A stretch of DNA of 64,000 bases. Origin: Methylocella tundrae. GTDB lineage: Bacteria > Pseudomonadota > Alphaproteobacteria > Rhizobiales > Beijerinckiaceae. The notes beneath the pieces are model-generated. The model was not told where the DNA came from. It was given only the letters and a program-made list of their open reading frames with translations, and did no database searches. Where the stretch lies: the NCBI RefSeq assembly GCF_038024855.1, contig NZ_CP139089.1, forward strand, positions 2,576,501 to 2,640,500, read 5' to 3'. Position numbers and translations under genes: made by a program. Below, piece after piece: positions 8,797-27,409 of this stretch. Position 1 is the stretch's first letter. Every line of letters begins with the position of its first letter.

Positions 8797-11700
8797 ATGA
8801 TCGGGTTACAAAGAATCGACAGGGTGCGGCGGCAGTATAATCAGTGGGTGGCCAACCAAACTCTTGAAGATTATGCTTTGCGCTTCACCGCCAAGAGCGC
8901 GCGCCGCTGGTCGTCTTTTCGCGTCGCCAATACCGCGCTCGGCGCAATATCCTTTCTGGCGCTTGAGGCGATCGGCGCCGCGATCACGTTGAATTACGGC
9001 TTCACCAACGCCGTCGCGGCCATTCTCGTCGTCTGCGCGCTGATGATGGCCGCGGGGCTGCCGATCTGCTTCTACGCCGCGAAATTTGGCGTTGACATCG
9101 ATCTTCTGACGCGCGGCGCGGGCTTTGGCTATCTCGGTTCAACGATCACCTCTTTGATCTACGCCTCCTTCACTTTCATCTTTTTCGCCATCGAGGCGGT
9201 CATCCTCGCTACCGCGCTCGACTTGTGCTTTGGCGTACCCCGGCCTGTCGGTTATCTGATCGCCGCCTTGGGCATCATCCCTCTGGTAACGCACGGCATC
9301 ACCTTCATCAGCCGCTTTCAGCTGTGGACCCAACCGTTGTGGGCTGTGCTGCAGGTGCTGCCCTTCATCGGCATCGTGCTGTTGCAGCCAGGCGCCTTCG
9401 CACAATGGACCCATTTCACCGGACAGCGCGGCCCGGCCTCGGGCGGCTTCGACATCGCCCTCTTTGGAGCCGCCGCCGCTGTTGTCTTTTCGCTGGCCGG
9501 GCAGATCGGCGAGCAGGTCGATTTTCTGCGCTTTTTGCCGCGCGAGAAGCCCGGCCAGCGCACGGCCTGGTGGCTGGCGCTGCTATCGGCCGGACCCGGC
9601 TGGGTGGTCATTGGCGCGCTCAAACTGCTGGCCGGGTCTTTCCTCGCGGCCTTCGCCCTCGGCCAAGGGATCGCATTCGCCGATGCGAGCGACCCGACGC
9701 ATCTCTATCTCGCCGCCTTTGGCTATGTGCTGCCGAACCCCGCCGTCGCGGTGGCGGTGACCGGGCTTTTCGTCTTGCTCGCACAGATCAAGATCAACGT
9801 CACAAACGCCTATGCCGGCTCGATCGCCTGGTCGAATTTTTTTTCGCGGCTGACCCACAGCCACCCCGGCCGCGTCGTCTGGCTCGTGTTCAACGTCGTC
9901 ATCGCCCTCCTGCTGATGGAGCTTGGCGTCTACAAAACCCTTGAGCAGACGCTGGGCCTTTACGCCAATGTCGCCGTGGCGTGGGTCGGCGCGCTGGTCG
10001 CCGATCTCGTCGTCAACAAGCCGCTCGGCCTCAGCCCTCCCTATATCGAATTCAAAAGGGCGCATTCCTACGACATCAATCCCGTCGGCGTCGGCGCCAT
10101 GCTGCTCGCCTGCGCGGCCTCGGCCGCCGCATCGCTGAATTATTTGGGCGCGACGGCCCATGCGCTGGCAATCTTCGTGGCGTTTGGCGTCAGCTTCACC
10201 GCTTCCCCGCTGATCGCGGCGCTGACGCGCGGGCGCTTCTATCTGGCGCGCAAGCCAAGCCAGAGCCTGCAGGCGCAGGGCGACATCAAATGCTGCATCT
10301 GTGAACATGCCTTCGAACCGGAGGACATGGCGCACTGCCCGGCTTACGCGGGCCCGATCTGCTCGCTGTGCTGTTCGCTCGACGCGCGCTGCCATGACCT
10401 GTGCAAGCCGCAGGCGCGGGTCGGCATGCAGGCGAAGGCGCTCGCGCGCCTCATTCTGCCGAAAGCCCTGCACGCGCAGCTCGACACACAGTTCATGCGT
10501 TATATCGGGGTATTCGCACTATCCGTCGGAGTGATCGCCGTCATCTTGAGCCTCGTCAATCTCGAGAGCGGGAGTGGTCAGGAGATCGGCCAGACGCTGG
10601 TTGCGAACGTGCTGTGGAAAGTGTTCTTCGCCCTCATGATCGTGGTTGGCGTCGCGGCCTGGCTGTTCGTTCTTTCCGGGCAAAGCATTCGCGCCGCCGA
10701 AGCCGAGCTCAATCGGCAGGCGAGTTTGCTGATGGCTGAAATCGAGGCGCATGGACGCACCGACGCCGCGCTGCAAAAGGCTAAGGAGGCGGCCGAGGCC
10801 GCCAATGAGGCGAAGAGCCGCTATGTCGTGGGCCTCAGCCACGAGCTTCGAACGCCGCTCAACGCGATTTTAGGCTACACTCAGCTTCTCGAACAAAATC
10901 AGGATCTTGGAAACAAGCCGCGCAATCAGATCCGCGTGGTGCAACGAAGCGCGCGGCACCTCGCCGGCTTGATCGATGGTCTTCTCGACGTCGCGAAGAT
11001 CGAAGCCGGCCGTCTGCACCTTGAACGGGACCAGGTCCGCATGGCGGAGTTTCTGGATCAGCTCGCCGAGATGTTCAAGATACAGGCCGAGACCAAAGGC
11101 ATCGCCTTCGACATCGAACGCCCCGCCAATCTGCCCGTCGTCGTTTATTCGGATGAGAAGCGTTTGCGGCAGATATTGATCAACCTCGTTTCCAACGCCA
11201 TCAAGTTCACCCGCCAGGGGGGCGTCGTCCTGAGCATGACCTATCGGAGCCCGATCGCCGAATTCAAGATTGTGGACACGGGGCCCGGCATCAGGGAACA
11301 GGATCTCGAACGCATCTTTGCGCCATTCGAGCGCGGCGCCATTGGAGAGACAGAGCCAAATTCAGGCACCGGCCTCGGGCTCACCATAGCCAAGCTGCTG
11401 ACCGGCATCATGGGCGGCCAGATCACAGTGCGCAGCACGCCCGGAAAGGGCAGCGCATTCAACGTGAAGCTGCTTCTCTCCGAAGTGACGGACCCGCGGC
11501 TTCCGGGCGCGGAGCCGCGCCGCGTCAGGGGCTACGCCGGGCCGCGGCGCACGGTGCTTGTCGTCGATGATGACGACTCGCATCGCGACCTGATGGCCGA
11601 CATTCTGGAGCCGCTCGGCTTTATTCTGATGAGCGCGCCCGACGGCGTGACCTGCCTCTCGCTCGTCGAGCACTGCCGTCCGGACCTGTTTCTGCTTGAC

Positions 11701-12162
11701 GTCTCGATGCCCGGCCTCAATGGCTGGATGCTGGCCGAGAAGCTGCGCGAAGGCGGCCACCGCGAGGCCTCCATCCTGATGCTTTCGGCCAATCCCATCG
11801 ACGCCCATCGCACCGCCGCTGTGGAGCCGGTTCACGACGGTTTCCTGATGAAGCCCATCGACGTTGGCCGGCTGCTCGACGCCGTGCAAAGCCTGCTCGG
11901 ACTTTCCTGGGAGCTTGAGGAAACGACGCCCGCTCCCGAAGTCGTGCTGGAGCCCGCGCAACTGACGGCGCATCATCTCGCTGATCTGACGGAGCTCGGC
12001 GCGCTCGGCTTCGTGCGCGGCATTCAGTTCAAGCTCGATGAGATCGCGGCCGAAAACCCGGACGCGCGGCCGGTCGTCGAGCGGCTGCGCGAGCTCGTCG
12101 AGAACTGCGATCTGCCGCGCTACATGGCTGAACTCGATGTGTTGAACGCCAATGACCGATGA
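8797..12162 (+). CDS. NCS1-type permease-domain hybrid sensor histidine kinase/receiver (copy 1)
   Basis: A 1121-residue membrane protein. Residues about 40-485 form a multi-helix NCS1 (nucleobase/allantoin-type) permease domain, including NTALGAISFLALEAIGA and the conserved KINVTNAYAGSIAWSNFFSR. A Cys-rich module follows (CCIC from residue 499, then HCPAYAGPICSLCC and CHDLC). Two more helices and a coiled coil lead to a HisKA domain with phospho-acceptor His682 in LSHELRTPLN, then an HATPase with N and G boxes. A receiver follows with Asp968 in LLDVSMPG and Lys in FLMKPID. A short conserved helical tail ends the protein. The downstream response regulator overlaps by 11 bases. It probably senses a nitrogen compound or its transport. 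Ligand and transport activity are unproven. Confidence 0.88.
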   Translation: MIGLQRIDRVRRQYNQWVANQTLEDYALRFTAKSARRWSSFRVANTALGAISFLALEAIGAAITLNYGFTNAVAAILVVCALMMAAGLPICFYAAKFGVDIDLLTRGAGFGYLGSTITSLIYASFTFIFFAIEAVILATALDLCFGVPRPVGYLIAALGIIPLVTHGITFISRFQLWTQPLWAVLQVLPFIGIVLLQPGAFAQWTHFTGQRGPASGGFDIALFGAAAAVVFSLAGQIGEQVDFLRFLPREKPGQRTAWWLALLSAGPGWVVIGALKLLAGSFLAAFALGQGIAFADASDPTHLYLAAFGYVLPNPAVAVAVTGLFVLLAQIKINVTNAYAGSIAWSNFFSRLTHSHPGRVVWLVFNVVIALLLMELGVYKTLEQTLGLYANVAVAWVGALVADLVVNKPLGLSPPYIEFKRAHSYDINPVGVGAMLLACAASAAASLNYLGATAHALAIFVAFGVSFTASPLIAALTRGRFYLARKPSQSLQAQGDIKCCICEHAFEPEDMAHCPAYAGPICSLCCSLDARCHDLCKPQARVGMQAKALARLILPKALHAQLDTQFMRYIGVFALSVGVIAVILSLVNLESGSGQEIGQTLVANVLWKVFFALMIVVGVAAWLFVLSGQSIRAAEAELNRQASLLMAEIEAHGRTDAALQKAKEAAEAANEAKSRYVVGLSHELRTPLNAILGYTQLLEQNQDLGNKPRNQIRVVQRSARHLAGLIDGLLDVAKIEAGRLHLERDQVRMAEFLDQLAEMFKIQAETKGIAFDIERPANLPVVVYSDEKRLRQILINLVSNAIKFTRQGGVVLSMTYRSPIAEFKIVDTGPGIREQDLERIFAPFERGAIGETEPNSGTGLGLTIAKLLTGIMGGQITVRSTPGKGSAFNVKLLLSEVTDPRLPGAEPRRVRGYAGPRRTVLVVDDDDSHRDLMADILEPLGFILMSAPDGVTCLSLVEHCRPDLFLLDVSMPGLNGWMLAEKLREGGHREASILMLSANPIDAHRTAAVEPVHDGFLMKPIDVGRLLDAVQSLLGLSWELEETTPAPEVVLEPAQLTAHHLADLTELGALGFVRGIQFKLDEIAAENPDARPVVERLRELVENCDLPRYMAELDVLNANDR

Positions 12163-13078
12163 TGGCCAGTTGCGTGACGTCGCCCTCGTCGTCGATGATT
12201 CGCCCGAGACGCTGTCGCTGCTGACCGACGCGCTCGACAAGGCCGGCATGACCGTCATGGTCGCCCTTGATGGCGCCTCCGCGATCAAGATCGCGCAAAG
12301 GCTGCTGCCGGACGTCATTCTGCTCGATGCGATGATGCCTGGCATCGACGGCTTCGAGACATGCCGGCGCCTCAAGACCGATGCGGCGCTGCGCAAGGTG
12401 CCGGTCATCTTCATGACGGGTTTGAGCGAGACCGAACATATCGTCAAAGGACTTGAGGCCGGCGGCGTCGACTATGTGACCAAGCCCGTGATCATCGAGG
12501 AAATGCTGGCGCGCATCCGCGTCCATCTAGCGACCGCCCGCGTCGCCCAAAGCGCGCGTGCGGCGCTCGACGCGTCGGGACGACATTTATTCGCGGTGAA
12601 CGCGGAAGGCCATGTGTTGTGGCTGACGCCCCAGGCCGAAAAGACGTTCCTCATCGCCGACGGCGACAAGGGGTTGCTCGTCCCCGCGGAGATTCGCGAC
12701 TGGGTCGCCGCCTGCAATGCAGGAGACGCGGACCGTCGCCGGAACGGACCGACGCTATCGCTGCTAAGAGCCGGCCCGGTGCGGATTTCCTATGTCGGCC
12801 GCATAGGTCCCGATGAGTTTTTATTGCGCCTCGCGCCGCAGGAAATCGAGGAGCTGCCCCCTTCCCTGTTCGAGCCGTTTCGACTGACGATGCGCGAACT
12901 CGAAGTCTTATCCTGGATCGTCAGAGGGAAATCCAATCGGGACGCCGCCGAAATCCTCGGGATGAGCACGCGCACGGTCGACAAGCATCTGGAGCACGTC
13001 TACGCAAAACTCGGAGTCGAAAACCGCACCGCCGCCACGGCGCTCGTCCTCAACCTCCTGGGAAAGGCTTCGGGATGA
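12152..13078 (+). CDS. LuxR-family response regulator (partner of kinase copy 1)
   Basis: A 308-residue protein with an N-terminal receiver (acidic pocket VVDDSPE, phospho-acceptor Asp59 in LLDAMMPG, Thr in FMTGLSE, Lys in YVTKPV). A central PAS-like segment starts near residue 130 (ALDASGRHLFAVNAEGHVLW). A C-terminal LuxR helix-turn-helix follows (LTMRELEVLSWIVRGKSNRDAAEILGMS as the core, then TVDKHLEHVYAKLGVENR). It overlaps the kinase gene by 11 bases, so the two are translationally coupled. It ends 87 bases before ureD on the same strand and so may be transcribed with, or control, the urease operon. Its paralogue is at 23146-24060. Confidence 0.93.
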   Translation: MTDDGQLRDVALVVDDSPETLSLLTDALDKAGMTVMVALDGASAIKIAQRLLPDVILLDAMMPGIDGFETCRRLKTDAALRKVPVIFMTGLSETEHIVKGLEAGGVDYVTKPVIIEEMLARIRVHLATARVAQSARAALDASGRHLFAVNAEGHVLWLTPQAEKTFLIADGDKGLLVPAEIRDWVAACNAGDADRRRNGPTLSLLRAGPVRISYVGRIGPDEFLLRLAPQEIEELPPSLFEPFRLTMRELEVLSWIVRGKSNRDAAEILGMSTRTVDKHLEHVYAKLGVENRTAATALVLNLLGKASG

Positions 13079-13165: not shown

Positions 13166-14074
13166 GTGCGGCTTGATAGATCCCATTGGCGAGCGCTATT
13201 GAATGCGGACTCGAGAGACAGCGCCACAGGAGCTTCCAACATCTCGCCATGCTCCAAAACGCCCTCGCCACGGTTTCAGCGCGCCGATGGCGGACTTGCA
13301 TTCGAAGTCGTTCGGAAATCGGGAGCGACGAGATTAAGCAAACTCCGCCAACAGGCGCCCTGTCGCGCTTTCTTTCCGTCGGCGGCGGACGCGTCCCTCA
13401 TGGAGGCGATCCTCGTCAATACGGGCGGCGGCCTCGTCGAGGGCGACCGTATTTCGAGTGAAATCAGAGTGCGCGAGGGCGCGCGATTGACAGTCACCAC
13501 GCAGGCGGCGGAGAAAATATATCGCTCGCTCACCGAGGAGACGCGCATCACGACCGATCTCGCCGTCGCGGAGGGCGCGCAGCTGACGTGGGCGCCGCAG
13601 GAAACGATCCTGTTTGACGGCGCCCGCCTCAGGCGCCGGCAGTGCGTTTCGGTGACGAAAACGTCGAGGTTTCTCGCAGCCGAGATCGTAATCTTCGGGC
13701 GCATCGCTCGCGGCGAGCGATTCACCTGCGGCTCATTGCGGGACAACTGGGCGATCCGCTGCCGCGATAAATTGCTATGGATGGATTGCCTGCGTCTCGA
13801 CGAGGGTTTCCTCGCTGAAAAGGCGCGGCGCTTCGCTTTCGGCGATTCAGCAGGCCTTGGCACAATCATCTATTTTGGCCCGGATTCGGCATCGATTTTG
13901 CCTGTCGCACAAGACGCGGCGGCGCGGCTCGGCGGAGGCGCGACGCTTGTCAACGGCGTTCTGCTCGCGCGCTTCTTGAACGACGACGAGGCGCAATTGC
14001 GGGCCGCTTCGTTTTCCTTCGCCGAGGAGCTTCACAAATCGATGGCCGGATCGGTCTGCTGGGAGAACGCATGA
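13166..14074 (+). CDS. ureD: urease accessory protein UreD
   Basis: A 302-residue UreD/UreH family member. It scaffolds UreF and UreG on apo-urease and helps deliver nickel in the cytoplasm. Family stretches include [12 protein letters not shown], the [11 protein letters not shown] segment and [16 protein letters not shown]. The reported start is a GTG at 13166. The first 45 residues are low-complexity and not typical of the family, so a downstream alternative start is possible, though no better in-frame ATG is visible. It overlaps ureA by four bases (ATGA). This is the first gene of ureDABCEFG. Confidence 0.93.
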
Positions 14075-14373
14075 ATCTGACTCCAAGAGAAAAAGACAAG
14101 CTCCTGATCGCCATGGCGGCGATCGTGGCGCGCCGCCGTCTCGAGCGCGGCGTAAAGCTCAATTATCCCGAGGCCGTCGCGATCATCACCGACTTCGTGG
14201 TGGAGGGCGCCCGCGACGGGCGCAGCGTCGCAGCTCTCATGGAGCAGGGCGGGACAGTGATCGGACGCGAACAGGTGATGGAGGGCATCGCAGAAATGAT
14301 CCCTGAAATTCAGGTGGAGGCGACCTTTCCCGATGGAACGAAGCTCGTCACCGTGCATGAGCCCATTCGATGA
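14071..14373 (+). CDS. ureA: urease gamma subunit UreA
   Basis: The protein is 100 residues, the standard length of separate bacterial gamma subunits. It begins [17 protein letters not shown] and contains [21 protein letters not shown]. It forms the urease core with UreB and UreC. ATGA overlaps join it to ureD upstream and ureB downstream, showing tight translational coupling. Confidence 0.97.
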
Positions 14374-14684
14374 TCCCGGGCGAGATCATTCCCGCCGCCG
14401 GCGACATTGTGCTCAACGCCGGCCGCGCCGCCATCGCGCTTGCCGTGTCGAATGTCGGGGACCGTCCGATCCAGGTCGGCTCCCACTATCATTTCGCCGA
14501 GACGAACGCAGCGCTCTCATTCGACCGGAAAAAGGCGCTCGGCATGCGGCTTGACATTCCGGCCGGAACCGCCGTCCGCTTCGAACCCGGCCAGTCCCGC
14601 GAAGTGAGGCTTATCCCTTATGCCGGCGCGCGCGAAATCTGGGGCTTTACCGGAGCCGTCATGAACAAGCTTGGAGAGGAATGA
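14370..14684 (+). CDS. ureB: urease beta subunit UreB
   Basis: This is a 104-residue beta subunit, separate from UreA as is usual in Proteobacteria. It starts [13 protein letters not shown] and carries the signatures [19 protein letters not shown] and [16 protein letters not shown]. It packs against UreC and stabilises the trimeric core. It overlaps ureA by four bases. The ureC start lies one base after its stop. Confidence 0.97.
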
Positions 14685-14685
14685 C

Positions 14686-16398
14686 ATGCCCGTCACGATA
14701 AGCCGGCGGGCCTATTCAGGCATGTTTGGCCCGACCGTCGGAGACAAGATCCGCCTCGCCGACACGCAATTGCTGATCGAGGTCGAACGCGACCACACCA
14801 TCTATGGCGAGGAAGTGAAGTTCGGCGGCGGCAAGGTCATTCGCGACGGGATGGGGCAAAGTCAACGCTCGCGCGCTGAAGGCGCCGTCGACACGCTCAT
14901 CACCAATGTGGTGATTCTCGATCATACCGGCGTGGTGAAAGCCGACGTCGGCCTGAAGGACGGCCGCATCGCCGCGATCGGCAAGGGCGGCAATCCCGAC
15001 ATTCAGCCGGGCGTCACGATCATCATCGGCCCAGGCACCGAGATTATCGCGGGCGAGGGAAAGATACTGACCGCCGGCGGCATCGACGCGCATATTCATT
15101 TCATCGCGCCGCAGCAGATCGAGGAGGCGCTCTATAGCGGCGTGACGACCATGTTGGGGGGCGGCACGGGTCCCGCGGAGGGAACCAAGGCGACGACCTG
15201 CACGCCGGGACCCTGGCACATGATGCGGATGCTGCAGGCCGCCGAAGGCTTGCCGATGAATCTCGGCTTTTTCGGCAAGGGCAATGCGAGCAAACCCGAT
15301 GCCCTCATCGAGACGGTGTCGGCCGGCGCCTGCGGTCTGAAACTGCATGAGGACTGGGGTACGACGCCCGCCGCCATCGATTGCTGTCTTTCCGTCGCCG
15401 ATCAACTCGACGTCCAGGCGACGCTCCATTCCGACACGCTGAACGAGAGCGGCTTCGTCGAGACGACGATCGCCGCCTTCAAGGGCCGCACGATCCATGC
15501 CTTTCATACCGAAGGCGCGGGCGGCGGGCACGCGCCTGACATCATCAAGCTTGCTGGCGAATTGAATGTTTTGCCCTCGTCAACCAACCCGACGCGGCCC
15601 TTCACGGTCAACACGCTGGACGAGCATCTCGACATGCTGATGGTCTGCCATCATCTCGATCCGCGCATTCCTGAGGACATCGCCTTCGCCGAGAGCCGCA
15701 TCCGTAAAGAGACCATCGCGGCCGAGGACATTCTGCATGATCTTGGCGCGCTCTCGATGATTTCAAGCGACAGCCAGGCGATGGGACGCGTCGGCGAAGT
15801 CATCATCAGATGCTGGCAGACCGCCGACAAAATGAAGCGCCAGCGCGGCTCGCTGCCCGAGGATGCGCCCGGCAACGACAATTTCCGCGCGCGGCGCTAC
15901 ATCGCGAAATATACGATCAACCCGGCGATCGCACACGGCATCTCGCATGTCGTCGGCTCCGTCGAGGTCGGCAAGCTGGCCGATCTCGTGCTGTGGTCTC
16001 CGGCGTTCTTCGGCGTCAAGCCGGATCTGGTTCTAAAGGGCGGCGTCATCGCGGCGGCGGCGATGGGCGATCCCAACGCCAGCATCCCGACGCCTCAGCC
16101 GGTGCACTACAGGCCGATGTTTGGAGCTTTCGGCCGAAGCCTCACCGAATCGAGCCTGCTCTTCGTCAGCGCGCTTTCCATCGAGCATGGGATCGCCTCG
16201 CGCTACGGCCTCTCCCGGCCGCTGGCGGCGGTGCGCAACGTGCGGAGCGGAATTTCCAAAAAGAGCATGATCCTGAATGACGCGACGCCGGTCATCGAGG
16301 TTGATCCCGAAACTTATGAGGTGCGCGCCGACGGCCTTTTGTTGACATGCGAGCCCGCCGAAGAGCTGCCGATGGCGCAGCGCTACTTTCTGTTTTGA
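14686..16398 (+). CDS. ureC: urease alpha subunit UreC
   Basis: The catalytic subunit, 570 residues, hydrolyses urea to ammonia and carbamate. Visible active-site parts are the HIHF nickel ligands (GGIDAHIHF), Lys219 in GLKLHEDWG (the carbamylated bridging lysine), [19 protein letters not shown], and the flap with His322/His323 in MVCHHLDP. The frame is open five codons upstream, but the ATG at 14686, after GGAGAGG, gives the canonical [20 protein letters not shown] start. No residue is missing, so the enzyme should be active if nickel loading occurs. Confidence 0.98.
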
Positions 16399-16399
16399 T

Positions 16400-16927
16400 A
16401 TGTCAGAGCCGCGCCGCGCAACCTCCGTTTTCCCCGCGCGAAGCTGGCCCGCCTCGCATGAGGTTGGGGCGGTGACGCTTTGCTGGGACGACCGGCATCG
16501 CCGCCGCATTCGTCTCAACATGGACGGCGACGGCGGCGAATTTCTCCTCGATCTGCCGCAGGCGGCGCGCCTCGCGGAAGGCGACGGCCTCGCCCTCGCG
16601 TCGGGCGGAATCGTTCGCGTCGTCGCCGCGCCCGAGCCGCTTTTGGAGGTAAGGGCCGGAGCGTCCAGTTTGGCGCAGCTTGCTTATCACCTCGGCAATC
16701 GGCATCTGCCGGTCCAGATCCTCGGCGGCGTCATTTTGATCCGCCAGGACCATGTGATCGAGGCCATGTTGATCGGTCTTGGCGCCGAGTGCCGCACAGC
16801 CCTGCGCCCCTTTTCGCCAGAGCAAGGCGCCTATGGCGGCGGACATTCACATGACCATCATCATCACGATGACGACGCGCACGCGCATGGCGCGCATGGA
16901 GGCCGCCACGATCACTCCCACGGATGA
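16400..16927 (+). CDS. ureE: urease accessory nickel metallochaperone UreE
   Basis: A 175-residue UreE. The N-terminal peptide-binding domain is followed by a metal-binding domain with the typical YHLGNRHLPVQI segment, whose His is the conserved dimer-interface nickel ligand. The last 30 residues form a His/Asp tail ([18 protein letters not shown] and more), a nickel-storage extension found in only some UreE proteins. It starts one base after the ureC stop. The tail overlaps the ureF start region. Confidence 0.95.
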   Translation: MSEPRRATSVFPARSWPASHEVGAVTLCWDDRHRRRIRLNMDGDGGEFLLDLPQAARLAEGDGLALASGGIVRVVAAPEPLLEVRAGASSLAQLAYHLGNRHLPVQILGGVILIRQDHVIEAMLIGLGAECRTALRPFSPEQGAYGGGHSHDHHHHDDDAHAHGAHGGRHDHSHG

Positions 16928-18372: not shown

Positions 18373-19563
18373 ATGAAGCTGATAAAGCGGCCTGTCGCCA
18401 AGATTTCCACCGCACTGCTCGCCGCGACCATGCTGTCGGCGCCATCCTACGCGGAAGATTCCGTCAAAGTCGGCGTGCTGCAATCCTTGAGCGGCACGAT
18501 GGCGATCAGCGAAGTCACGGTGAAGAACGCCGAAATGATGGCGATTGACGAAATCAACGCCGCCGGCGGCGTTCTCGGCAAGAAGATCATTCCCATTGTA
18601 GAGGACGGCGCTTCCGATCCGGCGATCTTCGCGCAAAAGGCGACGAAGCTGGTGCAGGACGGCGGCGTCGTGACCGTGTTCGGCGGCTGGACCTCCGCCA
18701 GCCGCAAAGCCATGCTGCCGGTGTTCCAGCGCCTGAAGAGCCTGCTGTGGTATCCCGTGCAGTTTGAAGGCAATGAATGCTCGCCCAACATCATGTATTC
18801 CGGCGCGCAGCCGAACCAGCAGATCGTCCCCGCCTACGACTGGGGCAAGGAGAAGGGCTATAAAAACTTCTTCCTGGTCGGCTCCGACTATGTTTTTCCG
18901 CGCACCGCCAATCTGATCCTCAAGAAGCACATCGCGGTGGACAAGCTGAAAACCGCGGGAGAAGAATATGTGCCTCTCGGCGGCACGGATTTCAGCGCGG
19001 TGATCGCCAAGATTCAGGCCGCCAATCCGGACGTCGTCTACAGCACGCTGAACGGCGACAGCAATGTCTCCTTCTTCAAGCAGATGGCGGCGGCCGGCAT
19101 CAAGCTTCCGGTGATGTCCTTCAGCATCGGCGAGCAGGAGGCCCAGGCCATGGGTCCGTCCCTGGTCGAGGGAAGCTACGCCGGCTGGAACTATTTTCAG
19201 AGCTTCACCAATGACGCCAACAAGAAGTTCGTCGCCGACTACCAAAAGAAGTTCGGCGCGGGCGCGGCCGTCACCGACCCCATGGTCCACGGCTATGTAG
19301 ATGTCTACATCTGGAAAGCGGCCGTCGAAAAGGCGGGCAGTTTCGATGTCGACAAAGTCAGAAAAGCCGCGGTCGATCTTGAGCTTCCCGACACGCCGAT
19401 GGGAGCCGTCAAATTCGCCAAGAACCAGAGCCTGTATCAGAAGGCCTATGTCGGCCAGCTCGATCCGGCGGGGCAGTTCAAGATCATCTGGCAATCGAAG
19501 GATCTGATCGCTCCCGATCCCTATGATCCGGTCGCCTTCCCCGGCAAGAAATGCGAACTCTGA
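18373..19563 (+). CDS. urtA: urea ABC transporter substrate-binding protein UrtA (set 2)
   Basis: A 396-residue periplasmic urea-binding protein. A Sec-type signal peptide (MKLIKRPVAKISTALLAATM to SYAED) is followed by VKVGVLQSLSGTMAISE, the UrtA hallmark, and by ASDPAIFAQKATKLV, FGGWTSASRKAMLPVF and WYPVQFEGNECSPN, which are close to known urea-binding proteins. GAGGGGA precedes the ATG. Compared with set 1, its signal lacks twin arginines and the WYPVQFEG urea signature is more canonical, so this set is the more likely dedicated urea importer. It lies directly after the urease genes. Confidence 0.95.
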   Translation: MKLIKRPVAKISTALLAATMLSAPSYAEDSVKVGVLQSLSGTMAISEVTVKNAEMMAIDEINAAGGVLGKKIIPIVEDGASDPAIFAQKATKLVQDGGVVTVFGGWTSASRKAMLPVFQRLKSLLWYPVQFEGNECSPNIMYSGAQPNQQIVPAYDWGKEKGYKNFFLVGSDYVFPRTANLILKKHIAVDKLKTAGEEYVPLGGTDFSAVIAKIQAANPDVVYSTLNGDSNVSFFKQMAAAGIKLPVMSFSIGEQEAQAMGPSLVEGSYAGWNYFQSFTNDANKKFVADYQKKFGAGAAVTDPMVHGYVDVYIWKAAVEKAGSFDVDKVRKAAVDLELPDTPMGAVKFAKNQSLYQKAYVGQLDPAGQFKIIWQSKDLIAPDPYDPVAFPGKKCEL

Positions 19564-19628
19564 ATCAGACCTGAAAGAAGCGCTTTCGCAGCGTCGAGAG
19601 CGCCTCTCTTTTCTGAAAGGCATGTCCC

Positions 19629-20537
19629 ATGGGCGCCTACACGCTTTTCGTCGGACAAATCTTCAACGGATTCAGCGTCGCCTCGTTGTTCGTGCTGGCG
19701 GCGCTGGGGCTCGCGCTGAGTTTTGGTCTGATGCGCGTCATCAACATGGCCCATGGCGAGATGCTGATGCTTGGGGGCTATCTCGCTTATCTGACGCTTA
19801 TCGCCATTCCCGGCCCGCTCGGCATCATCGTCGCCATGCCGATCGCATTTCTCGGCGCGGCGCTGGTCGGCGCCGTGATCGAGATGACGGTCATTCATCG
19901 TCTGGCCTCGCGCCCCCTCGATACTTTGCTGGCGACCTGGGGCGTCAGCCTCATTCTACAACAGGCGGCGCGCAACATTTTCGGCGCGATCGGCGTCGGC
20001 GTCACGGCGCCCGCATGGCTCGACCATTCGTTTCGCGTCGAGAGCGGCCTTCTCGCCGGTCTCAACCTGCCGGCGACGCGTATATTCATTCTGTTCGTCG
20101 CCATCGTGGTTTTAGCGGCGCTCAGCGTCCTGATGGCGCGCAGCAGGCTCGGCCTGCTCGTGCGCGCGGTCAATCAGGACCGCTTCATGGCTGGCGCCGC
20201 CGGCATCAATGTTCGCCAGGTCGATTTATTGGTGTTCTGCCTCGGCGCCGGCATCGCCGGCCTTGCCGGCGTGGTCCTCGCCTTGCTTGGCCCCGTCACG
20301 CCAAACGTTGGACAAAGCTACATCGTGCCGGCCTTTCTCGTCGTGATCCTCGGCGGCCTTGGCAGCCTTGTCGGAACCACCATCGCCTCGATCATGATCG
20401 GCCTGTTTTCGGCGCTTGTTCAGATCTTCGTCGACGTCAGCATGTCGCAGGTTCTCGTGCTCGTTTTCGTCATCGCATTCATTCAATTCCGGCCGCAAGG
20501 AGTCATCGCCGTCCGGTCGAGGGCGCTGGACAGTTGA
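19629..20537 (+). CDS. urtB: urea ABC transporter permease UrtB (set 2)
   Basis: An inner-membrane permease of 302 residues with LALSFGLMRVINMAHGEMLML near residues 30-50, RPLDTLLATWGVSLILQQAARNIFGAIGV and VILGGLGSLVGT. These are UrtB/LivH hallmarks. It follows urtA by 65 bases and precedes urtC by about 25. It is a homologue of set 1 urtB but with clearly different sequence, so the two sets are not a recent duplication. Confidence 0.94.
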   Translation: MGAYTLFVGQIFNGFSVASLFVLAALGLALSFGLMRVINMAHGEMLMLGGYLAYLTLIAIPGPLGIIVAMPIAFLGAALVGAVIEMTVIHRLASRPLDTLLATWGVSLILQQAARNIFGAIGVGVTAPAWLDHSFRVESGLLAGLNLPATRIFILFVAIVVLAALSVLMARSRLGLLVRAVNQDRFMAGAAGINVRQVDLLVFCLGAGIAGLAGVVLALLGPVTPNVGQSYIVPAFLVVILGGLGSLVGTTIASIMIGLFSALVQIFVDVSMSQVLVLVFVIAFIQFRPQGVIAVRSRALDS

Positions 20538-20562
20538 CGCCCCGGAACCGCGGAGCAGAATG

Positions 20563-21648
20563 ATGAATAAACAGCTTCCTCTCATCGGCCGCTTTCTGAC
20601 GATCGGCGTGATCGGGCTCGCGTTTCTGGCCCCGTGGCTGATCTCGGCCTATGAGCTCACGCTTCTTGGCCGTTTTCTTGCCCTTTCCATTCTCGCAATC
20701 GGCCTCGTGCTGCTGTGGGGCGAGGCCGGCGTGTTGAGTTTGGGACAGGGCGTGTTCTTTGGCCTTGGCGGATATGCGCTGGCGATGAATTTGAAGCTCG
20801 CCGCTTTGGGGCCCGGGGAAATCCCTGATTTCATGAGCTGGAGCGGGCGCGACGCTTTGCCCTGGTGGTGGGAGCCTTTCGGCAATTCGTTCTTCGCCGT
20901 AATGGGCGTCATCCTCGTGCCCGGCATATTCGCCGCGCTCTTCTCCTGGCTCGTGTTTCGCCGGCGCGTCGGCGGCGTTTATTTCGCCCTGATTACACAG
21001 GCGCTGGCGCTGTGCTTTGCGACCTTGCTGGTCAGTCAGCAGCAATCAACCGGCGGGTTCAACGGCCTCACCGACTTCCAGACCTTTTCCGGCCTCGATC
21101 TCGGCTCTCCGGGAACAATACGCGGCCTCTATTGGGCGACATTGCTTTTGCTCATCGCATCATTCGCGGGCGTTCATTGGCTGCTGTCATCGCGCTTCGG
21201 CAAGCTTTTGCGCGCGACGCGCGATGGCGAGAACCGGGTCAGATTCCTCGGCTATGATCCAGCTCCCTATAAAGTCGTCGCCTTCACGCTGAGCGCGGTC
21301 CTCGCCGGTGTCGCCGGCGCCCTGTTCACGCTGCACGCAGGTGTGATCTCGCCGGCGCTCGTCGGGGTGGTGCCCTCGATCGAAATGGTGATCTGGGTGG
21401 CGATTGGCGGACGCAAGAGCCTTTGGGGCGCCATCGCCGGCACGCTTCTGATGAATTTCGCGAAGGATCAGATCAGCAGCGCCTTGCCGAGCCTCTGGCT
21501 TTACGCTCTTGGCCTTGTCTTTGTCCTTGTCGTGACGCTGCTGCCCGAGGGCCTCGCCGGTTTGGGCTCGGGCTGGACGTCGCGGTTGAGCCGCCGCCGG
21601 CCCGTCACGCCCGTCGGCTCCAACCCTGTCGCGCGCGTGGAGAGCTAG
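20563..21648 (+). CDS. urtC: urea ABC transporter permease UrtC (set 2)
   Basis: A UrtC/LivM-type permease of about 361 residues. The upstream-open frame reaches back into urtB. Of the adjacent ATGs at 20560 and 20563, the second has GGAG at about 7 bases and is preferred. Signatures are LLWGEAGVLSLGQGVFFGLGGY, QQQSTGGFNGLTDF and DGENRVRFLGYDP. It spans the membrane about ten times and forms the channel with UrtB. The gap to urtD is only three bases. Confidence 0.93.
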   Translation: MNKQLPLIGRFLTIGVIGLAFLAPWLISAYELTLLGRFLALSILAIGLVLLWGEAGVLSLGQGVFFGLGGYALAMNLKLAALGPGEIPDFMSWSGRDALPWWWEPFGNSFFAVMGVILVPGIFAALFSWLVFRRRVGGVYFALITQALALCFATLLVSQQQSTGGFNGLTDFQTFSGLDLGSPGTIRGLYWATLLLLIASFAGVHWLLSSRFGKLLRATRDGENRVRFLGYDPAPYKVVAFTLSAVLAGVAGALFTLHAGVISPALVGVVPSIEMVIWVAIGGRKSLWGAIAGTLLMNFAKDQISSALPSLWLYALGLVFVLVVTLLPEGLAGLGSGWTSRLSRRRPVTPVGSNPVARVES

Positions 21649-21651
21649 CCC

Positions 21652-22425
21652 ATGTCCGATCTCGCTCCCTTGCTGACGGAGCCGCATCTGCTGCTGGCGG
21701 TTGACGGCGTCACGGTCGACTTCGACGGCTTCAAGGCTCTCAACGGGTTCAGCCTGACGATTGATCGCGGATCGCTTCGCGTCGTGATCGGCCCGAATGG
21801 GGCGGGCAAATCGACCTTGTGCGATACGATCATAGGCCGCGTGAGGGCGACCGACGGGCGCGTGGTGTTCAAGGGCGAGGACATCACGCAATTACCGGAG
21901 TTCGAGATTGTCCGGCGCGGCATTTGCCGCAAATTTCAGACGCCCGGCGTTCTGCCGTCTTTGAGCGTTCTCGACAACCTTCTGATCGCCGCTCAAAAGG
22001 ATCGCCGGTGGTGGCGCTCGTTTGGCGTCGCCGAGGCCGTGGAAGAACGCGAAAAGGTCGATGAGATCCTTGAGACCATCGGCCTCGCCGACCGCAGCCA
22101 CATCCTCGCGGGCGAATTGGCGCATGGCGAAAAGCAATGGCTCGAAATCGGCATGGTGGTGGCGACCGACGCCGATCTCCTTCTGCTCGATGAGCCGACG
22201 GCCGGAATGGGTCCGGCCGAAACCAGCCGCACGGCCGATCTCATTCGCGGACTGCAAGGCCGGCACGCGGTGCTGGTGATCGATCACGACATGAGCTTCA
22301 TCGAACAATTGAACGGGAGGGTGACTGTCATGCATATGGGGCAGTTCCTGAAAGAAGGCAGCGTCGCCGAGATCCGCAAGGACCCCGAGGTCGCGGCCGT
22401 CTATCTGGGGCGGGCGGCCGAATGA
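21652..22425 (+). CDS. urtD: urea ABC transporter ATPase UrtD (set 2)
   Basis: A 257-residue UrtD-type ATPase with Walker A GPNGAGKST, the UrtD-type signature AHGEKQWLEIGMVV, and LLLLDEPTAGMGP. The VDFDGFKALNGFSLTID start is typical. It pairs with UrtE to drive urea import. The four-base ATGA overlap with urtE indicates coupled translation. Confidence 0.94.
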   Translation: MSDLAPLLTEPHLLLAVDGVTVDFDGFKALNGFSLTIDRGSLRVVIGPNGAGKSTLCDTIIGRVRATDGRVVFKGEDITQLPEFEIVRRGICRKFQTPGVLPSLSVLDNLLIAAQKDRRWWRSFGVAEAVEEREKVDEILETIGLADRSHILAGELAHGEKQWLEIGMVVATDADLLLLDEPTAGMGPAETSRTADLIRGLQGRHAVLVIDHDMSFIEQLNGRVTVMHMGQFLKEGSVAEIRKDPEVAAVYLGRAAE

Positions 22426-23135
22426 GCGTCCTCCTGAAGCTCGACCATGTCGCCGCCGCCTACGGCCAAAGTCAGGTCCTCTGGGACATCGACCTCGACA
22501 TCGAGGATGGCGGAGCGGTCGCGCTCATCGGGCGCAACGGGGTTGGAAAGACCACCCTATTCAAGACCATCATCGGCGCGTTGCGCCTGACCAGCGGCTC
22601 GATCTGGTTCAAGGGCGAGGATATTTCAAAACTGCAATCCTATGAACGCGCCCGCAAAGGGATCGGCCTCGTGCCGCAGGGGCGCCACATCTTCCCGCAT
22701 TTGACTGTGGAGGAAAACCTCGAAACCGGCTTGTCTGCGCTGGCCGGGCGCGGACAGGCGATCGGCGCTATCCCCGATCACATCTATGATCTGTTCCCCA
22801 AACTCAATCAGATCAAGGCCCGCAAGGCCGGCGTGCTCAGCGGCGGCGAACAACAGCAACTCGCCATCGGGCGGGCGCTTTGCGGACGGCCGAGCCTGTT
22901 GCTTCTCGACGAGCCGACGGAAGGCATTCAGCCCAATGTCGTGCAGCAGATCGAGGACGCGCTGCGGCGCATCCGGCGCGAGCTCAAGGTGACCATCGTG
23001 ATCATCGAGCAATATCTCGATTTTGCGTGGTCCTTTGCTGACCACTATAGCGTCATGCAGCGAGGCCATCTCATTCGCCAGGGGAGCACGCGGGATGAGA
23101 CCGCCGCTGACGTCGCGCATCTTGTCAACATATAG
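22422..23135 (+). CDS. urtE: urea ABC transporter ATPase UrtE (set 2)
   Basis: The product is 237 residues with Walker A GRNGVGKTT, signature LSGGEQQQLAIGRAL and Walker B LLLDEPTEGIQPN. The EPTEGIQPN form is diagnostic of UrtE. It is the last gene of the plus-strand urease/urea-import run. It ends only 10 bases from the end of the convergent second response regulator gene. Confidence 0.94.
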   Translation: MSVLLKLDHVAAAYGQSQVLWDIDLDIEDGGAVALIGRNGVGKTTLFKTIIGALRLTSGSIWFKGEDISKLQSYERARKGIGLVPQGRHIFPHLTVEENLETGLSALAGRGQAIGAIPDHIYDLFPKLNQIKARKAGVLSGGEQQQLAIGRALCGRPSLLLLDEPTEGIQPNVVQQIEDALRRIRRELKVTIVIIEQYLDFAWSFADHYSVMQRGHLIRQGSTRDETAADVAHLVNI

Positions 23136-23145
23136 CCCCATCGCG

Positions 23146-24060
23146 CTACTGGCGCGCGGAGAGCGTTCGCACCGCCATCGCCGCGGCGGCGGCGCGGTTC
23201 TCGACGCCAAGCTTCCGGAAGATCTGTTCGAGATGCTTGTTCACAGTGCGCGGGCTGATGCCCAAAATGGCGCTGATGTCGCGGTTCGATTTTCCCGCCG
23301 CGAGCCAGACCAGAACCTCGCCCTCGCGCGAGGTGAGCGTCATCGCTTCCTTCAAAAGCTGCGCTCCATCGCTCTGATTGGCTTCATTCAGGCGATAGAG
23401 AAATTCATTGGGGCCCGTGCGGCTCAAATAAAGACATTCGATTCTTCGATCGCCAAGCTGCAAGGTGACGCTTTTGGCGCCGGTCGAGGCATCCTGACGA
23501 AGATGGCTAAGCCGCGCGGCCATTGCGCCATCGAGCCGGGGGCCATCCAAAAGCCCGTCGGCGAGCATCCGCTCGGCTTGCGGCGTGCACCATAACAGCG
23601 CGCCCGCCTCGTCCGTCGCGATGAGGCAGCGGCCGGTGGCGTCGAGCGCCGTTCGCGCGCTATAGGCAATCCGGGCGTTGGCGAGATGGACCTTGATGCG
23701 CGCGAGCAATTCATCGACGACGATCGGCTTGGTGACGTAATCGACGCCGCCGCAGGCCAAGCCATGAAGCACATGTTCGGTTTCGCTCAAGCCCGTCATG
23801 AAGATGACCGGCAGATGCGAGAAATGCGGCTCCTGCTTGATGCGGCGGCAGGTCTCGAAGCCGTCCATACCCGGCATGGCGGCGTCCATGAGAACGAGGT
23901 CCGGCATGATCTCGTGAAGCAGGCCTAGCGCGCTCTCTCCGTCGAGCGCCGCAAAAACCGTCAATCCCGCTGTCTCGAGCGCCTCCGTCAAAAACGCGAG
24001 GGTGTCCGGCGTGTCGTCGACCGTCAGAATTTTGTCGCGGCGGTTCGGCGCCTCATCCAT
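23146..24060 (-). CDS. LuxR-family response regulator (partner of kinase copy 2)
   Basis: A 304-residue paralogue of the regulator at 12152-13078 with the same layout. The receiver has phospho-acceptor Asp59 (LMDAAMPG), FMTGLSETEH and YVTKPI. A central PAS-like segment follows (ALDATGRCLIATDEAGALLW). The C-terminal LuxR helix-turn-helix contains LTSREGEVLVWLAAGKSNRD and TVNKHLEQIFRKLGVENR. It overlaps the upstream kinase gene by eight bases, mirroring the first pair. It is convergent with set 2 urtE. Confidence 0.93.
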   Translation of the reverse strand: MDEAPNRRDKILTVDDTPDTLAFLTEALETAGLTVFAALDGESALGLLHEIMPDLVLMDAAMPGMDGFETCRRIKQEPHFSHLPVIFMTGLSETEHVLHGLACGGVDYVTKPIVVDELLARIKVHLANARIAYSARTALDATGRCLIATDEAGALLWCTPQAERMLADGLLDGPRLDGAMAARLSHLRQDASTGAKSVTLQLGDRRIECLYLSRTGPNEFLYRLNEANQSDGAQLLKEAMTLTSREGEVLVWLAAGKSNRDISAILGISPRTVNKHLEQIFRKLGVENRAAAAAMAVRTLSARQ

Positions 24061-27000
24061 CGTGCTTGATCGCTTTCAAAGTATCCATGTACTTTTTCAG
24101 ATCAAAGCGTTGAACCATTGCGCGCAGGCTTGCAATAAAGGGCGCCGCTTCGGGTTCAACTCTCTCCCACTCCTTCAGCTCTTCTCCGATCCCCCGCACA
24201 TATCCAATTCGTCCCAATTGCAGCAGTTCATCGAGGCGCCGATGGACGCCGGGAGGAATCTCGAGCGCGACGGCGTCCGCCGGAGCGTCAGCGGGTTCAT
24301 CATGGATCCATTTCAGTCCAAGATGCGCCTGGATCGATTCCAGCATTTGCTGGATATCGAGCGGCTTGACAAGGAAATCATGGTGCGGGCCGCCGCTCTG
24401 TCCGCCATCTCTATAATCATGCACATTGCCTGAAATAATGATGATCTTCAGGCGCGCCGACTTGCGCCGCAATGCTTCAGCCACCTCCCATCCGTTTGGT
24501 CCAGGCATAGAAATGTCGAGCATCGCGAGATCAGGCTCGATTTCCGAGGCCAGTTGCAAGGCCGAGCCGCCATCCTTCGCCACCAGCAGGATGAAGCCGA
24601 GTGGACGCAGGACGCGCTGGACAAAATCCAGATGGTTCAAATCATCGTCGACCAAAAGGATTTTTTGCGGCGGTCCGGCGTAGCCGCGGATCTGGCGTTG
24701 CGTTGGACCGACGTCCGCGGAATGCATCGCTTCCGACAACAGGAGCCGGACGCGGAATGTGCTGCCAGCGCCCGGCGCGCTCTCAACGGAGATTTCTCCG
24801 CCCATGACGTGCGTCAACAGCTTTGCGATGGTGAGGCCAAGGCCCGTTCCAGGCAGTGCGCGCGCCTTCGGCATCTGGCCGCGCTCGAAGGGTTCGAAAA
24901 TCGATTCGATATCGTCGGCGCGAATGCCAAGTCCCGTGTCGGAGACTTCGATTTCCGCCACCTGATTGCGGTAACGGATGTGTAACGCCGCGTGGCCTTC
25001 TTCGGTGTATTTGATCGCGTTCGAGAGCAGATTGATGAGGATTTGCCGTAATCGCTTGACGTCCGTGTGAACATAGGTCGGCAAGTGATCCGGGCGCGCG
25101 TAGAGGAAGCGAATGTTTTTGGCTTCGGCCTGCGGGCGGAACATTTCGACGATCTGGTCGAGGAACTCGACGAGCCGGACCTTGTCCCGATTGAGCCGAA
25201 GCACGCCGCTTTCAATGCGGGAAATGTCGAGTAGACCATCGACGAGGCTCGCCAAATGCTCGGCGTTGCGCCGGATGACGCGGATGCCGTCGCCCGCGGT
25301 TTCCGATGGCGTTCGCTCCAGCAACTGAGCGTAGCCGAAGATGGAGTTCAGCGGTGTGCGGATCTCATGGCTTAGCCCAACGATGTATCTGCTTTTTGCG
25401 ACATTGGCCGCCTCGGCCGCTTCCTTGGCTTTCTGCAAAGCGGCGTGCGTATCCTTATGCGCCTCGATTTCCTCCATCAGCGTCGACGCCTGACGTTTGG
25501 ATTCATCTTCCGCCGCGCGCCGGCTTTCGTGAGCCAGCACCAGCAGCCACGCAGCGACGCCGGAGAGAATGAGGAGCGCCCAGAAGACAATCCATAATGT
25601 CGTTCCAATGACCGGGCGCTCAGCGATGGCGACGGCGCCGTAGGCGACATAGATCTGGGCGAGGAGATAGGCGATGACGCCGTTGAACAGAAACAGGACG
25701 CCAAGAAACTGACCCATGCGGGTCTTGAAGAACGCCGCCGCTCGCCTCGGCAGCAGGGCGTCGATGGCGCGGCCGATCTGATCGTTCAAGCGCTTGCCGG
25801 GCTTGCACATGTCATGGCAGCGCGCCTCCAATGTGCAGCAAAGAGAGCAGATCGGCGCGCCATAGGCCGGGCAATAGGCCATGTCGCTGCGCTCGAACGG
25901 ATTTTCGCAGATTGAACAGCAGATCTCGCCGCGACGCTGCTCCAGCTCCGTGTCCGCGCGCGCGATCGCATAGCCGCCTTTCGTGACAAAGGCGATGAAA
26001 GGAGCCGCGAGAAAGGCGATGATGAGGCCGATGAAGGGGCTCAAAGGGCGAGGCGCCTGACCAAATGCGCCAAGAAAAACGAGCGTCGAGACGAACACCG
26101 AAATCGCCATCGCGCCGACGCCGACCGGATTGACGTCATAAAGATGCGCGCGTTTGAATTCGATGTGAGGCGCGCTCAACCCCAAGGGCTTGTTGACGAC
26201 GAGATCGGCGGTCAAGGCGCCGATCCAGCCGACGGCGAAATTAGCGTAGAGGGCGAGTATGCTCTCGATGGCGCGGAAAACGCCGACTTCCATCAACAGC
26301 AAGGCGAGCAAAACGTTGAAGACGAGCCACACGACGCGGCCCGGATGGCTGTGGGTCAGACGCGAAAAGAAATTCGACCAGGCGATCGAGCCCGCGTAAG
26401 CATTGGTTACATTGATTTTCGTCTGACAGACCACGACGAAAAGGCCTGTCAACGCGAGGGCCAAAGTTGGTGAATGAAACAGGTCGAGGAAAACGAGATG
26501 GTAGAGTTCGGCCGGCTGCGCGGCGCGATCGGCCGTCACGCCGCGAGTCAGCGCCAGATAGGCCAGAAAGGAGCCCATCAAGAGCTTGAAGGCGCCCATC
26601 GCGACCCATCCGGGACCTGCCGCGATGACCGCGCTCCACCAGGCGAGCGCGCTCGTGTTTTTGCGATCGGGCATAAAGCGCAGATAATCGACCTGCTCGC
26701 CGATCTGCGGCAGGAGAGACATCAGCATCGAGGCCGCGGCGCCGAACTGCAGGAAGCTGATCGAGCCGTCTGGGTTTCCGGTGGCGCCGTGAAATGCGGT
26801 CCAGCCGGTGACAGCGCCGGCGCCGTTCAGCGCGAGGTAAAGCAGGGGCGAAAACTGCAGGATGAGCCAGATCGGCTGCGTTGCGAGCTGCATCTGGCTG
26901 ATGCGGCGGATGCCATGCGCTGCGATGGGGATGACGATCAATGAGCTGACGATATGCGCGATCGGCAGCGGAATGCCGAAACACATCTGCAGCGCCGCCG

Positions 27001-27409
27001 ACATGATGCTGGCCTCGATCGCAAACAGAAGAAACGTGAATGAGGCGTAGACCAGCGAGGTGAGGGTCGAGCCGAGATAGCCGAAGCCCGCGCCACGGGT
27101 CAGAAGGTCGATATCGACTCCGAATTTGACGGCGTAATAGGCGATGGGCACGCCGCACGCGAACATCAGCGCGCTGACCGCAATGATCGCGGCCACGGCG
27201 TTGGAGAAGCCGAAAGTCAGTGTGACCGCGCCGCCGATCGCCTCGCAGGCGAGAAAGGAAATGGCGCCAAGGGCCGTGTTGGCCACGCGGAACATGCTTT
27301 TGCGGGCGCGCACGGGCGTGAAGCGCAGCGCGTAATCCTCAAGGGTTTCATTAGCGACCCATTGATTATACTGACGCCGCCGCGGGACAATGCGCTGTAT
27401 GGACTTCAT
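24053..27409 (-). CDS. NCS1-type permease-domain hybrid sensor histidine kinase/receiver (copy 2)
   Basis: A 1118-residue paralogue of the kinase at 8797. The open frame continues 38 codons upstream, but the ATG at 27409 aligns with the first copy (both read RRQYNQWVAN(Q/E)TLEDYALRF near residue 11). It has an NCS1-like permease domain (residues about 35-480), a Cys module (CCSICENPFER, CPAYGAPICSLCC, CHDMC), and two further helices. Phospho-acceptor His681 lies in LSHEIRTPLN, followed by HATPase boxes, a receiver with Asp965 (MLDISMPG), and the same conserved tail. Sequence drift from copy 1 is considerable in the permease loops and receiver but low in KINVTNAYAGSIAWSNFFSR. Its ligand may differ. 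Confidence 0.88.
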   Translation of the reverse strand: MKSIQRIVPRRRQYNQWVANETLEDYALRFTPVRARKSMFRVANTALGAISFLACEAIGGAVTLTFGFSNAVAAIIAVSALMFACGVPIAYYAVKFGVDIDLLTRGAGFGYLGSTLTSLVYASFTFLLFAIEASIMSAALQMCFGIPLPIAHIVSSLIVIPIAAHGIRRISQMQLATQPIWLILQFSPLLYLALNGAGAVTGWTAFHGATGNPDGSISFLQFGAAASMLMSLLPQIGEQVDYLRFMPDRKNTSALAWWSAVIAAGPGWVAMGAFKLLMGSFLAYLALTRGVTADRAAQPAELYHLVFLDLFHSPTLALALTGLFVVVCQTKINVTNAYAGSIAWSNFFSRLTHSHPGRVVWLVFNVLLALLLMEVGVFRAIESILALYANFAVGWIGALTADLVVNKPLGLSAPHIEFKRAHLYDVNPVGVGAMAISVFVSTLVFLGAFGQAPRPLSPFIGLIIAFLAAPFIAFVTKGGYAIARADTELEQRRGEICCSICENPFERSDMAYCPAYGAPICSLCCTLEARCHDMCKPGKRLNDQIGRAIDALLPRRAAAFFKTRMGQFLGVLFLFNGVIAYLLAQIYVAYGAVAIAERPVIGTTLWIVFWALLILSGVAAWLLVLAHESRRAAEDESKRQASTLMEEIEAHKDTHAALQKAKEAAEAANVAKSRYIVGLSHEIRTPLNSIFGYAQLLERTPSETAGDGIRVIRRNAEHLASLVDGLLDISRIESGVLRLNRDKVRLVEFLDQIVEMFRPQAEAKNIRFLYARPDHLPTYVHTDVKRLRQILINLLSNAIKYTEEGHAALHIRYRNQVAEIEVSDTGLGIRADDIESIFEPFERGQMPKARALPGTGLGLTIAKLLTHVMGGEISVESAPGAGSTFRVRLLLSEAMHSADVGPTQRQIRGYAGPPQKILLVDDDLNHLDFVQRVLRPLGFILLVAKDGGSALQLASEIEPDLAMLDISMPGPNGWEVAEALRRKSARLKIIIISGNVHDYRDGGQSGGPHHDFLVKPLDIQQMLESIQAHLGLKWIHDEPADAPADAVALEIPPGVHRRLDELLQLGRIGYVRGIGEELKEWERVEPEAAPFIASLRAMVQRFDLKKYMDTLKAIKHDG

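Follow-up and report, generated by a model that had tools for sequence, protein, structure and literature searches.

A stretch of 64,000 nucleotides of the Methylocella tundrae genome (contig NZ_CP139089.1, positions 2,576,501 to 2,640,500; hereafter the window) encodes two paralogous histidine kinases, HK1 and HK2, whose input domain has the fold of NCS1 transporters, each together with its own response regulator, RR1 or RR2. It is likely that these form two two-component systems with a kinase input derived from an NCS1 transporter, HK1/RR1 most likely sensing short amides (formamide) and HK2/RR2 urea. The ligand would bind the LeuT-fold pocket of the NCS1 domain, and the domain movement could be passed via a Cys-rich module to two helices, of which the second runs on into the helix that bears His682. 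The kinase would then phosphorylate its own receiver and the GerE regulator from the overlapping gene, and the regulator could bind TACGTCA-N2-TGACGTA or a local variant and switch on, rather than repress, the urtABCDE(-fmdA) importer operon. Our results suggest that a borrowed transporter serves many bacteria as a sensor of nitrogen nutrients.

Sensor kinases, their input domain and their regulators

Both kinases are intact open reading frames (ORFs) with 54% identity end to end, in agreement with the two paralogues of about 1120 residues described in the initial annotation, and no further copy turned up when the whole 4.42-Mb, three-contig genome was searched. In HK1, an NCS1-type domain (about residues 36-480) is followed by a Cys-rich module (499-536), two helices (565-591 and from 596), HisKA with His682, HATPase and a receiver with Asp968. 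Pfam recognized HisKA, HATPase_c and Response_reg in HK1 and HK2, as had been claimed for both, and the His box, N box, G boxes and receiver aspartate of hybrid histidine kinases are in place: His682, Asn800, Asp827 and Gly859 are conserved in 116/116 family members and Asp968 in 111, the remaining five having no receiver. A third branch of about 890-915 residues (L122, L123 and L204) adjoins fmdA, with urt genes and the GerE regulator absent and with the receiver absent in L122 and L123 and, judged by length only, in L204. Three cyanobacterial members (L053, L071 and L075) have neither a receiver nor a GerE-regulator match, and two of them are also without nearby amide or urea genes.

Fold comparison and profile comparison both place the N-terminal input domain with NCS1 and support homology, at 14-16% identity to CodB and Mhp1, and NCS1 chains outrank those of SLC5 (CHT1 20.7, SMCT1 19.5), which has the same fold. 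The proposed fusion to an NCS1-like permease is thereby supported, although the curated profile PF02133 gives no match: it is absent from the 11 weak Pfam matches (best E-value 0.012) that 19 domain members yielded, and nothing in the genome matches it at E<=0.001. In the phylum sample described below, the sole non-fused full-length relative is a stand-alone 497-residue permease (L125:9448-10941), whose own relatives in many cases carry PF02133 and are in some cases named allantoin or cytosine permease in databases.

Pocket residues were mapped with hhalign and the CodB paper (PMC9379551), the available sections of which describe both residues sandwiching the substrate as conserved aromatics across NCS1, with Phe or Trp throughout at the Phe204 position. 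The two aromatics are not both present here, CodB Trp108 corresponding to Phe129 in HK1 and Leu in HK2, and CodB Phe204 to Leu233, which is Leu in 89/89 amide rows. Glu133, Gln236, Glu239, Gln240, Asn334, Asn337 and Tyr339 are identical in 89/89 amide-linked rows and in the urea clades examined, Glu133 presumably being the counterpart of Mhp1 Gln121, provided that the stacking Trp of Mhp1 is residue 117. The Na2-site hydroxyls (CodB Thr278/279) are replaced in both window proteins by Asn337/Ala338 or Lys332/Ile333, depending on the register of TM8, whose alignment with CodB can shift by about five residues; Ser or Thr is retained at 338 in 13/89 amide rows. The lost aromatic and the changed Na2 site may accord with a small ligand that is not aromatic and with an altered coupling.

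These residues bear on two other explanations. A nucleobase, allantoin or hydantoin could be the ligand, the amide and urea genes being controlled since purine breakdown yields urea and ammonia; the domain shares the fold of cytosine and hydantoin carriers, and databases give several stand-alone relatives the name allantoin or cytosine permease. Nevertheless, a purine breakdown product appears quite improbable as the ligand, because one aromatic sandwich position is Leu and the commonest partner is formamidase plus the amide importer, in neighbourhoods where no search for purine-catabolism, allantoin or hydantoin genes was made. It is also conceivable, if rather unlikely, that the NCS1 domain is a dual-function transceptor that still imports its ligand, with transport turnover setting kinase activity in a CbrA-like manner. 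The CodB Arg216-Tyr285 pair is indeed retained as Arg245 and Tyr339 in 89/89 amide rows, and the accessible part of one paper reports that the SLC5 domain of CbrA imports histidine and does so without sodium (PMC13022988), which tempers the argument from the missing Na2 hydroxyls. That argument, itself limited by the Ser/Thr rows at 338, speaks against continued transport all the same, as do the ABC importer for the presumed ligand that already adjoins and Ks-Amt5, for which the accessible text indicates that a transporter fold can lose transport when it serves as a sensor (PMC5764959). In the preferred reading, the domain would bind its ligand and would no longer carry it.

The Cys-rich module went unremarked in the initial annotation. 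Its eight cysteines are invariant in 116/116 members, including the five without a receiver. A structure model of residues 470-700 (predicted local distance difference test, pLDDT, 86.8; predicted template modelling score, pTM, 0.61) has short strands, then a helix at 565-591 and an unbroken helix at 596-699 bearing His682, and the two extra helices noted earlier are thus recovered as predicted helices. Searches for a known domain in 54 linkers gave, besides HisKA, weak Pfam matches only (DUF6526 in 22, best E 9.6e-5; MENTAL in 5, best 8.1e-5), and none fell on the module in member 1, the one member for which match places were displayed. No STAC match occurred among the Pfam hits of HK1 and HK2 or among the matches listed for the 54 linkers (25 of 137 families), the presence of a STAC model in the library being unchecked. 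Foldseek returned nothing significant for the module (best row MICAL1, 0.065), nor did a further structure comparison. At least 19 of the 50 Foldseek matches listed are PHD, RING, RBR, LIM, ZZ or C1 proteins, at E 0.98 or worse, and a double-zinc finger of RING/PHD type is put forward as a suggestion only.

The regulators had been described as paralogous, PAS-containing LuxR-type proteins. The LuxR-type part holds, as Response_reg and GerE were found by Pfam in RR1 and RR2 and in 26/26 regulators compared, with Asp59 invariant across the 26 rows, giving the receiver, conserved phospho-acceptor aspartate and helix-turn-helix of NarL/FixJ-type regulators. The PAS part is unconfirmed, with no PAS match at E<=1 in RR1 or RR2 and none among the matches listed (25 of 52 families) for the 26 regulators. 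The reported overlap of 8-11 bases between kinase and regulator genes was confirmed (12152-12162 and 24053-24060). In 110/118 loci the regulator gene directly follows the kinase gene on the same strand; three of the other eight are short contigs or fragments.

Linkage to amide and urea genes

Relatives were sought with kinase residues 1-650, and the best 8000 candidates by word sharing were scored, all 8000 being significant. The kinase was found in 40/299 genomes of a phylum sample (E<=0.001; two of the 40 weak or fragmentary) and in 127/397 genomes sampled in the window's order (E<=1e-100). We took 120 loci with flanks, 118 of which contain the kinase; the first 80 are the best-scoring of 592 relatives and therefore lean toward HK1-like proteins. 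Loci were labelled amide or urea according to their partner genes and to resemblance to the two UrtA proteins of the window. Among 114 classified loci (L030 and L034, with odd ORF length, and the fragments L035 and L126 were excluded), amide or urea genes adjoin the kinase in 106, and five of the eight without them break off at the kinase gene or immediately upstream of it (L006, L059, L073, L124 and L151). In a second, unclustered set of 40 loci, chosen from about 134 places in the 127 genomes to favour two-copy genomes and family variety, such genes were present in 40/40 (19 with amide urt and fmdA, 20 with urea-type urt and one with fmdA only). The neighbourhood survey thus agrees with the expected co-occurrence of homologues with amide and urea genes. 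Reciprocally, 28 of 31 close amide-UrtA genes (>=69% identity, 299 genomes) adjoin such a kinase by coordinates, and the other three comprise one on another contig of a kinase-bearing genome and two second copies. A second amide-type UrtA gene in the same genome (L161:7850-13379; G000:C3, 1970-1976 kb) has no NCS1 kinase nearby; its neighbours encode an amidase, a CN-hydrolase and a protein of the FmdA/AmdA family.

Along the kinase tree the amide/urea label changes some seven times, well-supported branches force at least four of these changes, and an earlier tree with 23 near-copies left out likewise had seven. Positions 129, 230, 231, 235 and 336 differ strongly between the two groups; position 129 is Phe in 107/108 amide rows and Leu in 26/37 urea rows, the latter still including L193, a row out of register that was excluded only from the relatedness-aware pocket and tree analysis.

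A palindromic box and its covariation with the regulator

Intergenic regions between kinase and urtA have a common inverted repeat, TACGT-N6-ACGTA. Among the 96 regions of the first set it is exact in 26, within one mismatch in 49 and within two in 70, against 0, 0.5 and 6.9 in shuffled controls, and after clustering at 85% identity the respective counts are 20, 36 and 44 of 65; other spacings (2-11) gave no exact match and at most three regions within one mismatch. The box was first noticed by eye and then counted on these same regions; later counts were made on additional loci or on entire genomes, some of the 32 genomes searched having already been represented in the first set. Inner bases that the pattern does not enforce lengthen the palindrome to TACGTCA-N2-TGACGTA. 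Over 2,306,199 bases of loci, 76 of 95 sites within one mismatch lie no more than 800 bases from the start of a kinase gene or of urtA (gene starts, here and in the second set, being starts of tblastn matches), 15 lie apart from these starts, about 80-160 bases upstream of fmdA, one is upstream of a detached urtC and three are elsewhere. In L117, L129, L130, L175, L184 and L185 the kinase is 2-7 kb from urtA and the box precedes urtA, so that the box belongs to the transporter operon. The second set of 40 loci gave 22 exact boxes, 27 within one mismatch and 33 within two (shuffles 0, 0.3 and 4.9). The TACGTCRNNYGACGTA form occurs 26 times in 23 of 32 hand-picked kinase-bearing genomes, the reversed-pattern control finding two sites, and 23 of the 26 are, by coordinates, at promoters of the kinase-regulator-transporter system. 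Of the three TACGY-N6-RCGTA palindromes that the whole 4.42-Mb genome contains, one is the window box, TACGTAAAATAGCGTA. It falls in the 178-base gap between HK1 and the amide-type urtA when the latter starts at the ATG at 8618; the start of a longer TTG ORF (7359-8786) is probably an artefact.

The variable residue of TVxKH in the GerE recognition helix tracks the sixth base of the half-site. Clusters with Asn have C at this base in at least one half-site in 31/33 cases and in both in 20, the inner bases being free, and clusters with Asp or Thr have it in 0/8 (Fisher 4.7e-7, uncorrected for relatedness). In the unclustered second set, where a loose pattern finds 35 loci (shuffles 7.3), the counts are 28/30 and 0/5. 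RR1 carries Asp, and the box of the window is of the corresponding type. For RR2, which carries Asn, the neighbouring genes yielded no box of the Asn type. The palindrome before urtA or fmdA in relatives, together with an inner base that follows the recognition helix, supports control of the transporter operons.

Several observations weigh against the proposed model. Twenty-six of the 96 first-set regions are without a box within two mismatches, the exact form is absent from 9/32 genomes, and amide loci of the second set have a less regular box (exact in 5/19, as compared with 17/20 urea loci). In the window no good box lies near HK2, the urease genes or the urea-type urtA; the sister locus L069 has no box except a two-mismatch site inside urtA, and the three Asn-type two-mismatch sites of the whole genome are all outside the window. 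The initial annotation had the kinases acting as transceptors that control both transporter operons and urease: fold, fusion, linkage and a box ahead of urtA or fmdA agree with part of this, the urease genes being no more than candidate targets, but the window's urea operon, which we take as the putative target of HK2/RR2, is without a good box. Three loci with full flanks (L065 and the cyanobacterial L071 and L075) are true exceptions with no amide or urea genes. The tree requires three helix changes, with independent pairs too few for the covariation to reach significance. Likewise, no pocket residues could be assigned to a ligand, as independent pairs were not significant once relatedness was allowed for; the Phe129-to-Leu change is shared by only two urea lineages, and one amide cluster has Leu too.

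The core pocket residues Thr126, Glu133, Leu233, Gln236, Asn334 and Asn337 are the same in the amide and urea groups, which makes a shared ligand possible: both kinases might sense one cue, urea or general nitrogen status, the amide/urea split concerning the neighbourhood only. We regard this as improbable, given that every genome recorded with two full-length copies, nine in all (G000, G158, G225, G246, G445, G546, G550, G602 and G618), carries one amide-linked and one urea-linked copy, and that the five positions named above contrast strongly, though not beyond relatedness. Separate sensing of amides and urea therefore remains our preferred reading.

Three further sets of sites were recorded. 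One of the three TACGTCRNNYGACGTA sites away from promoters of the system is a perfect box in genome G573 (L205:7216-7231), 62 bases ahead of an aliphatic-amidase gene not linked to it (PRK13286 equivalog, 711 bits); a survey of amiE promoters (47 matches, 17 without a locus, and 9 of 30 loci dropped for a missing start pattern) found the box at this one of 21, compared with 1.6 in shuffles for the loose pattern, which indicates no general rule, and the wider regulon was rejected. At 18254-18269 of the window a degenerate palindrome, TACGTCGAACGCCCCA, with three mismatches, lies about 105-120 bases upstream of the urea-type urtA. A sigma-54 promoter in the 96 intergenic regions was set aside, the loose pattern being modestly enriched (12/96 toward the kinase against 2.75 in shuffles, and 4 toward urtA against 1.85) and the strict pattern occurring once (shuffles 0.05).

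Window surroundings and relation to known systems

That the kinases bracket urease and amide/urea import was borne out, with fmdA and a urt-type importer on the minus strand and ureDABCEFG and urtABCDE on the plus strand (table). The first urease-gene ORF starts 87 bases past RR1 on the same strand. Both window UrtA proteins exceed the TIGR03407 cut-off for urea UrtA, so that automatic names fail to separate the two sets, which the partner enzymes do. A gene for a double-cupin protein with two Cupin_1 stretches (28646-29893) adjoins HK2 on the opposite strand.

Table. Features of the window (coordinates count from its first base)
Feature	Coordinates	Strand	Remarks
FmdA formamidase	2383..3615	-	NCBIfam equivalog NF045496, 761.6 bits, cut-off 500
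UrtE-like ATPase, amide set	3688..4377	-	named by place and likeness
UrtD-like ATPase, amide set	4390..5133	-	named by place and likeness
UrtC-like permease, amide set	5142..6317	-	named by place and likeness
UrtB-like permease, amide set	6334..7260	-	named by place and likeness
amide-type UrtA-like binding protein	7359..8618	-	ATG at 8618 behind GGAGG
proposed regulator box TACGTAAAATAGCGTA	8702..8717		between amide operon and HK1
HK1	8797..12162	+	1121 aa; intact ORF; histidine kinase with NCS1-type input domain
RR1	12152..13078	+	receiver and GerE; overlaps HK1 by 11 bases; recognition helix ...TVDKH...
ureDABCEFG urease genes	13166..18220	+	named from sequence likeness, no family search
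urtABCDE, urea set	18373..23135	+	UrtA above TIGR03407 cut-off; others named from likeness
RR2	23146..24060	-	receiver and GerE; overlaps HK2 by 8 bases; recognition helix ...TVNKH...
HK2	24053..27409	-	1118 aa; intact ORF; HK1 paralogue, identical domain architecture

Beyond the window, it is quite possible, and we advance it tentatively, that these kinases are widespread and apparently undescribed receptors, in which an NCS1 carrier became a dedicated sensor of very small nitrogen compounds, connected to the kinase by the uncatalogued eight-Cys module and repeatedly re-tuned from amide to urea, with regulator and box changing together. A common family, natural amide/urea pairs within a genome and a predicted short DNA target make ligand switching, carrier-to-receptor conversion and regulator-box co-evolution testable. 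If true, this would explain how many Proteobacteria decide on the uptake of urea and formamide.

No paper on an NCS1-fused kinase, nor an experiment on any family member, was found in the open-licence literature, a search outside which most subscription papers fall. The fmdA-urtABCDE and LuxR two-component genes of Ectopseudomonas guguanensis G3 very likely have, by their gene numbers, the same arrangement; in the accessible text they are annotated only as a hybrid kinase and a LuxR regulator, with the NCS1 domain, box and function undiscussed (PMC13296017). The ammonia sensor GrtK has, according to the available part of its paper, a PilS-like membrane domain (PMC12918730).

Among known systems, transporter-fused kinases come closest, and few of these have been studied. 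CbrA, CrbS and RpuS, the SLC5/STAC kinases, likewise fuse a LeuT-fold transporter domain to a kinase; from the accessible parts of the respective papers, CrbS/CrbR has a LuxR-type regulator with an inverted repeat (PMC5715377) and RpuS/R regulates a pyruvate symporter gene (PMC9100948). Unlike these, the window kinases have an input domain closest to NCS1 and a linker made of the Cys-rich module and two helices, with no STAC match, and their family is linked to amide and urea import. Compared with the NCS1 carriers CodB and Mhp1, which they resemble in fold and profile and, for CodB, in the Arg-Tyr pair (Arg245-Tyr339), the window proteins have lost the Na2 hydroxyls, have Phe (Leu in HK2) and Leu at the sandwich positions and are fused to a kinase. 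Ks-Amt5, the ammonium sensor kinase of Kuenenia, likewise uses the fold of a nitrogen-nutrient transporter as kinase input; as far as the accessible text describes it, it differs in having an Amt/Rh fold, no PAS, HAMP or STAC linker and a regulator not yet identified (PMC5764959).

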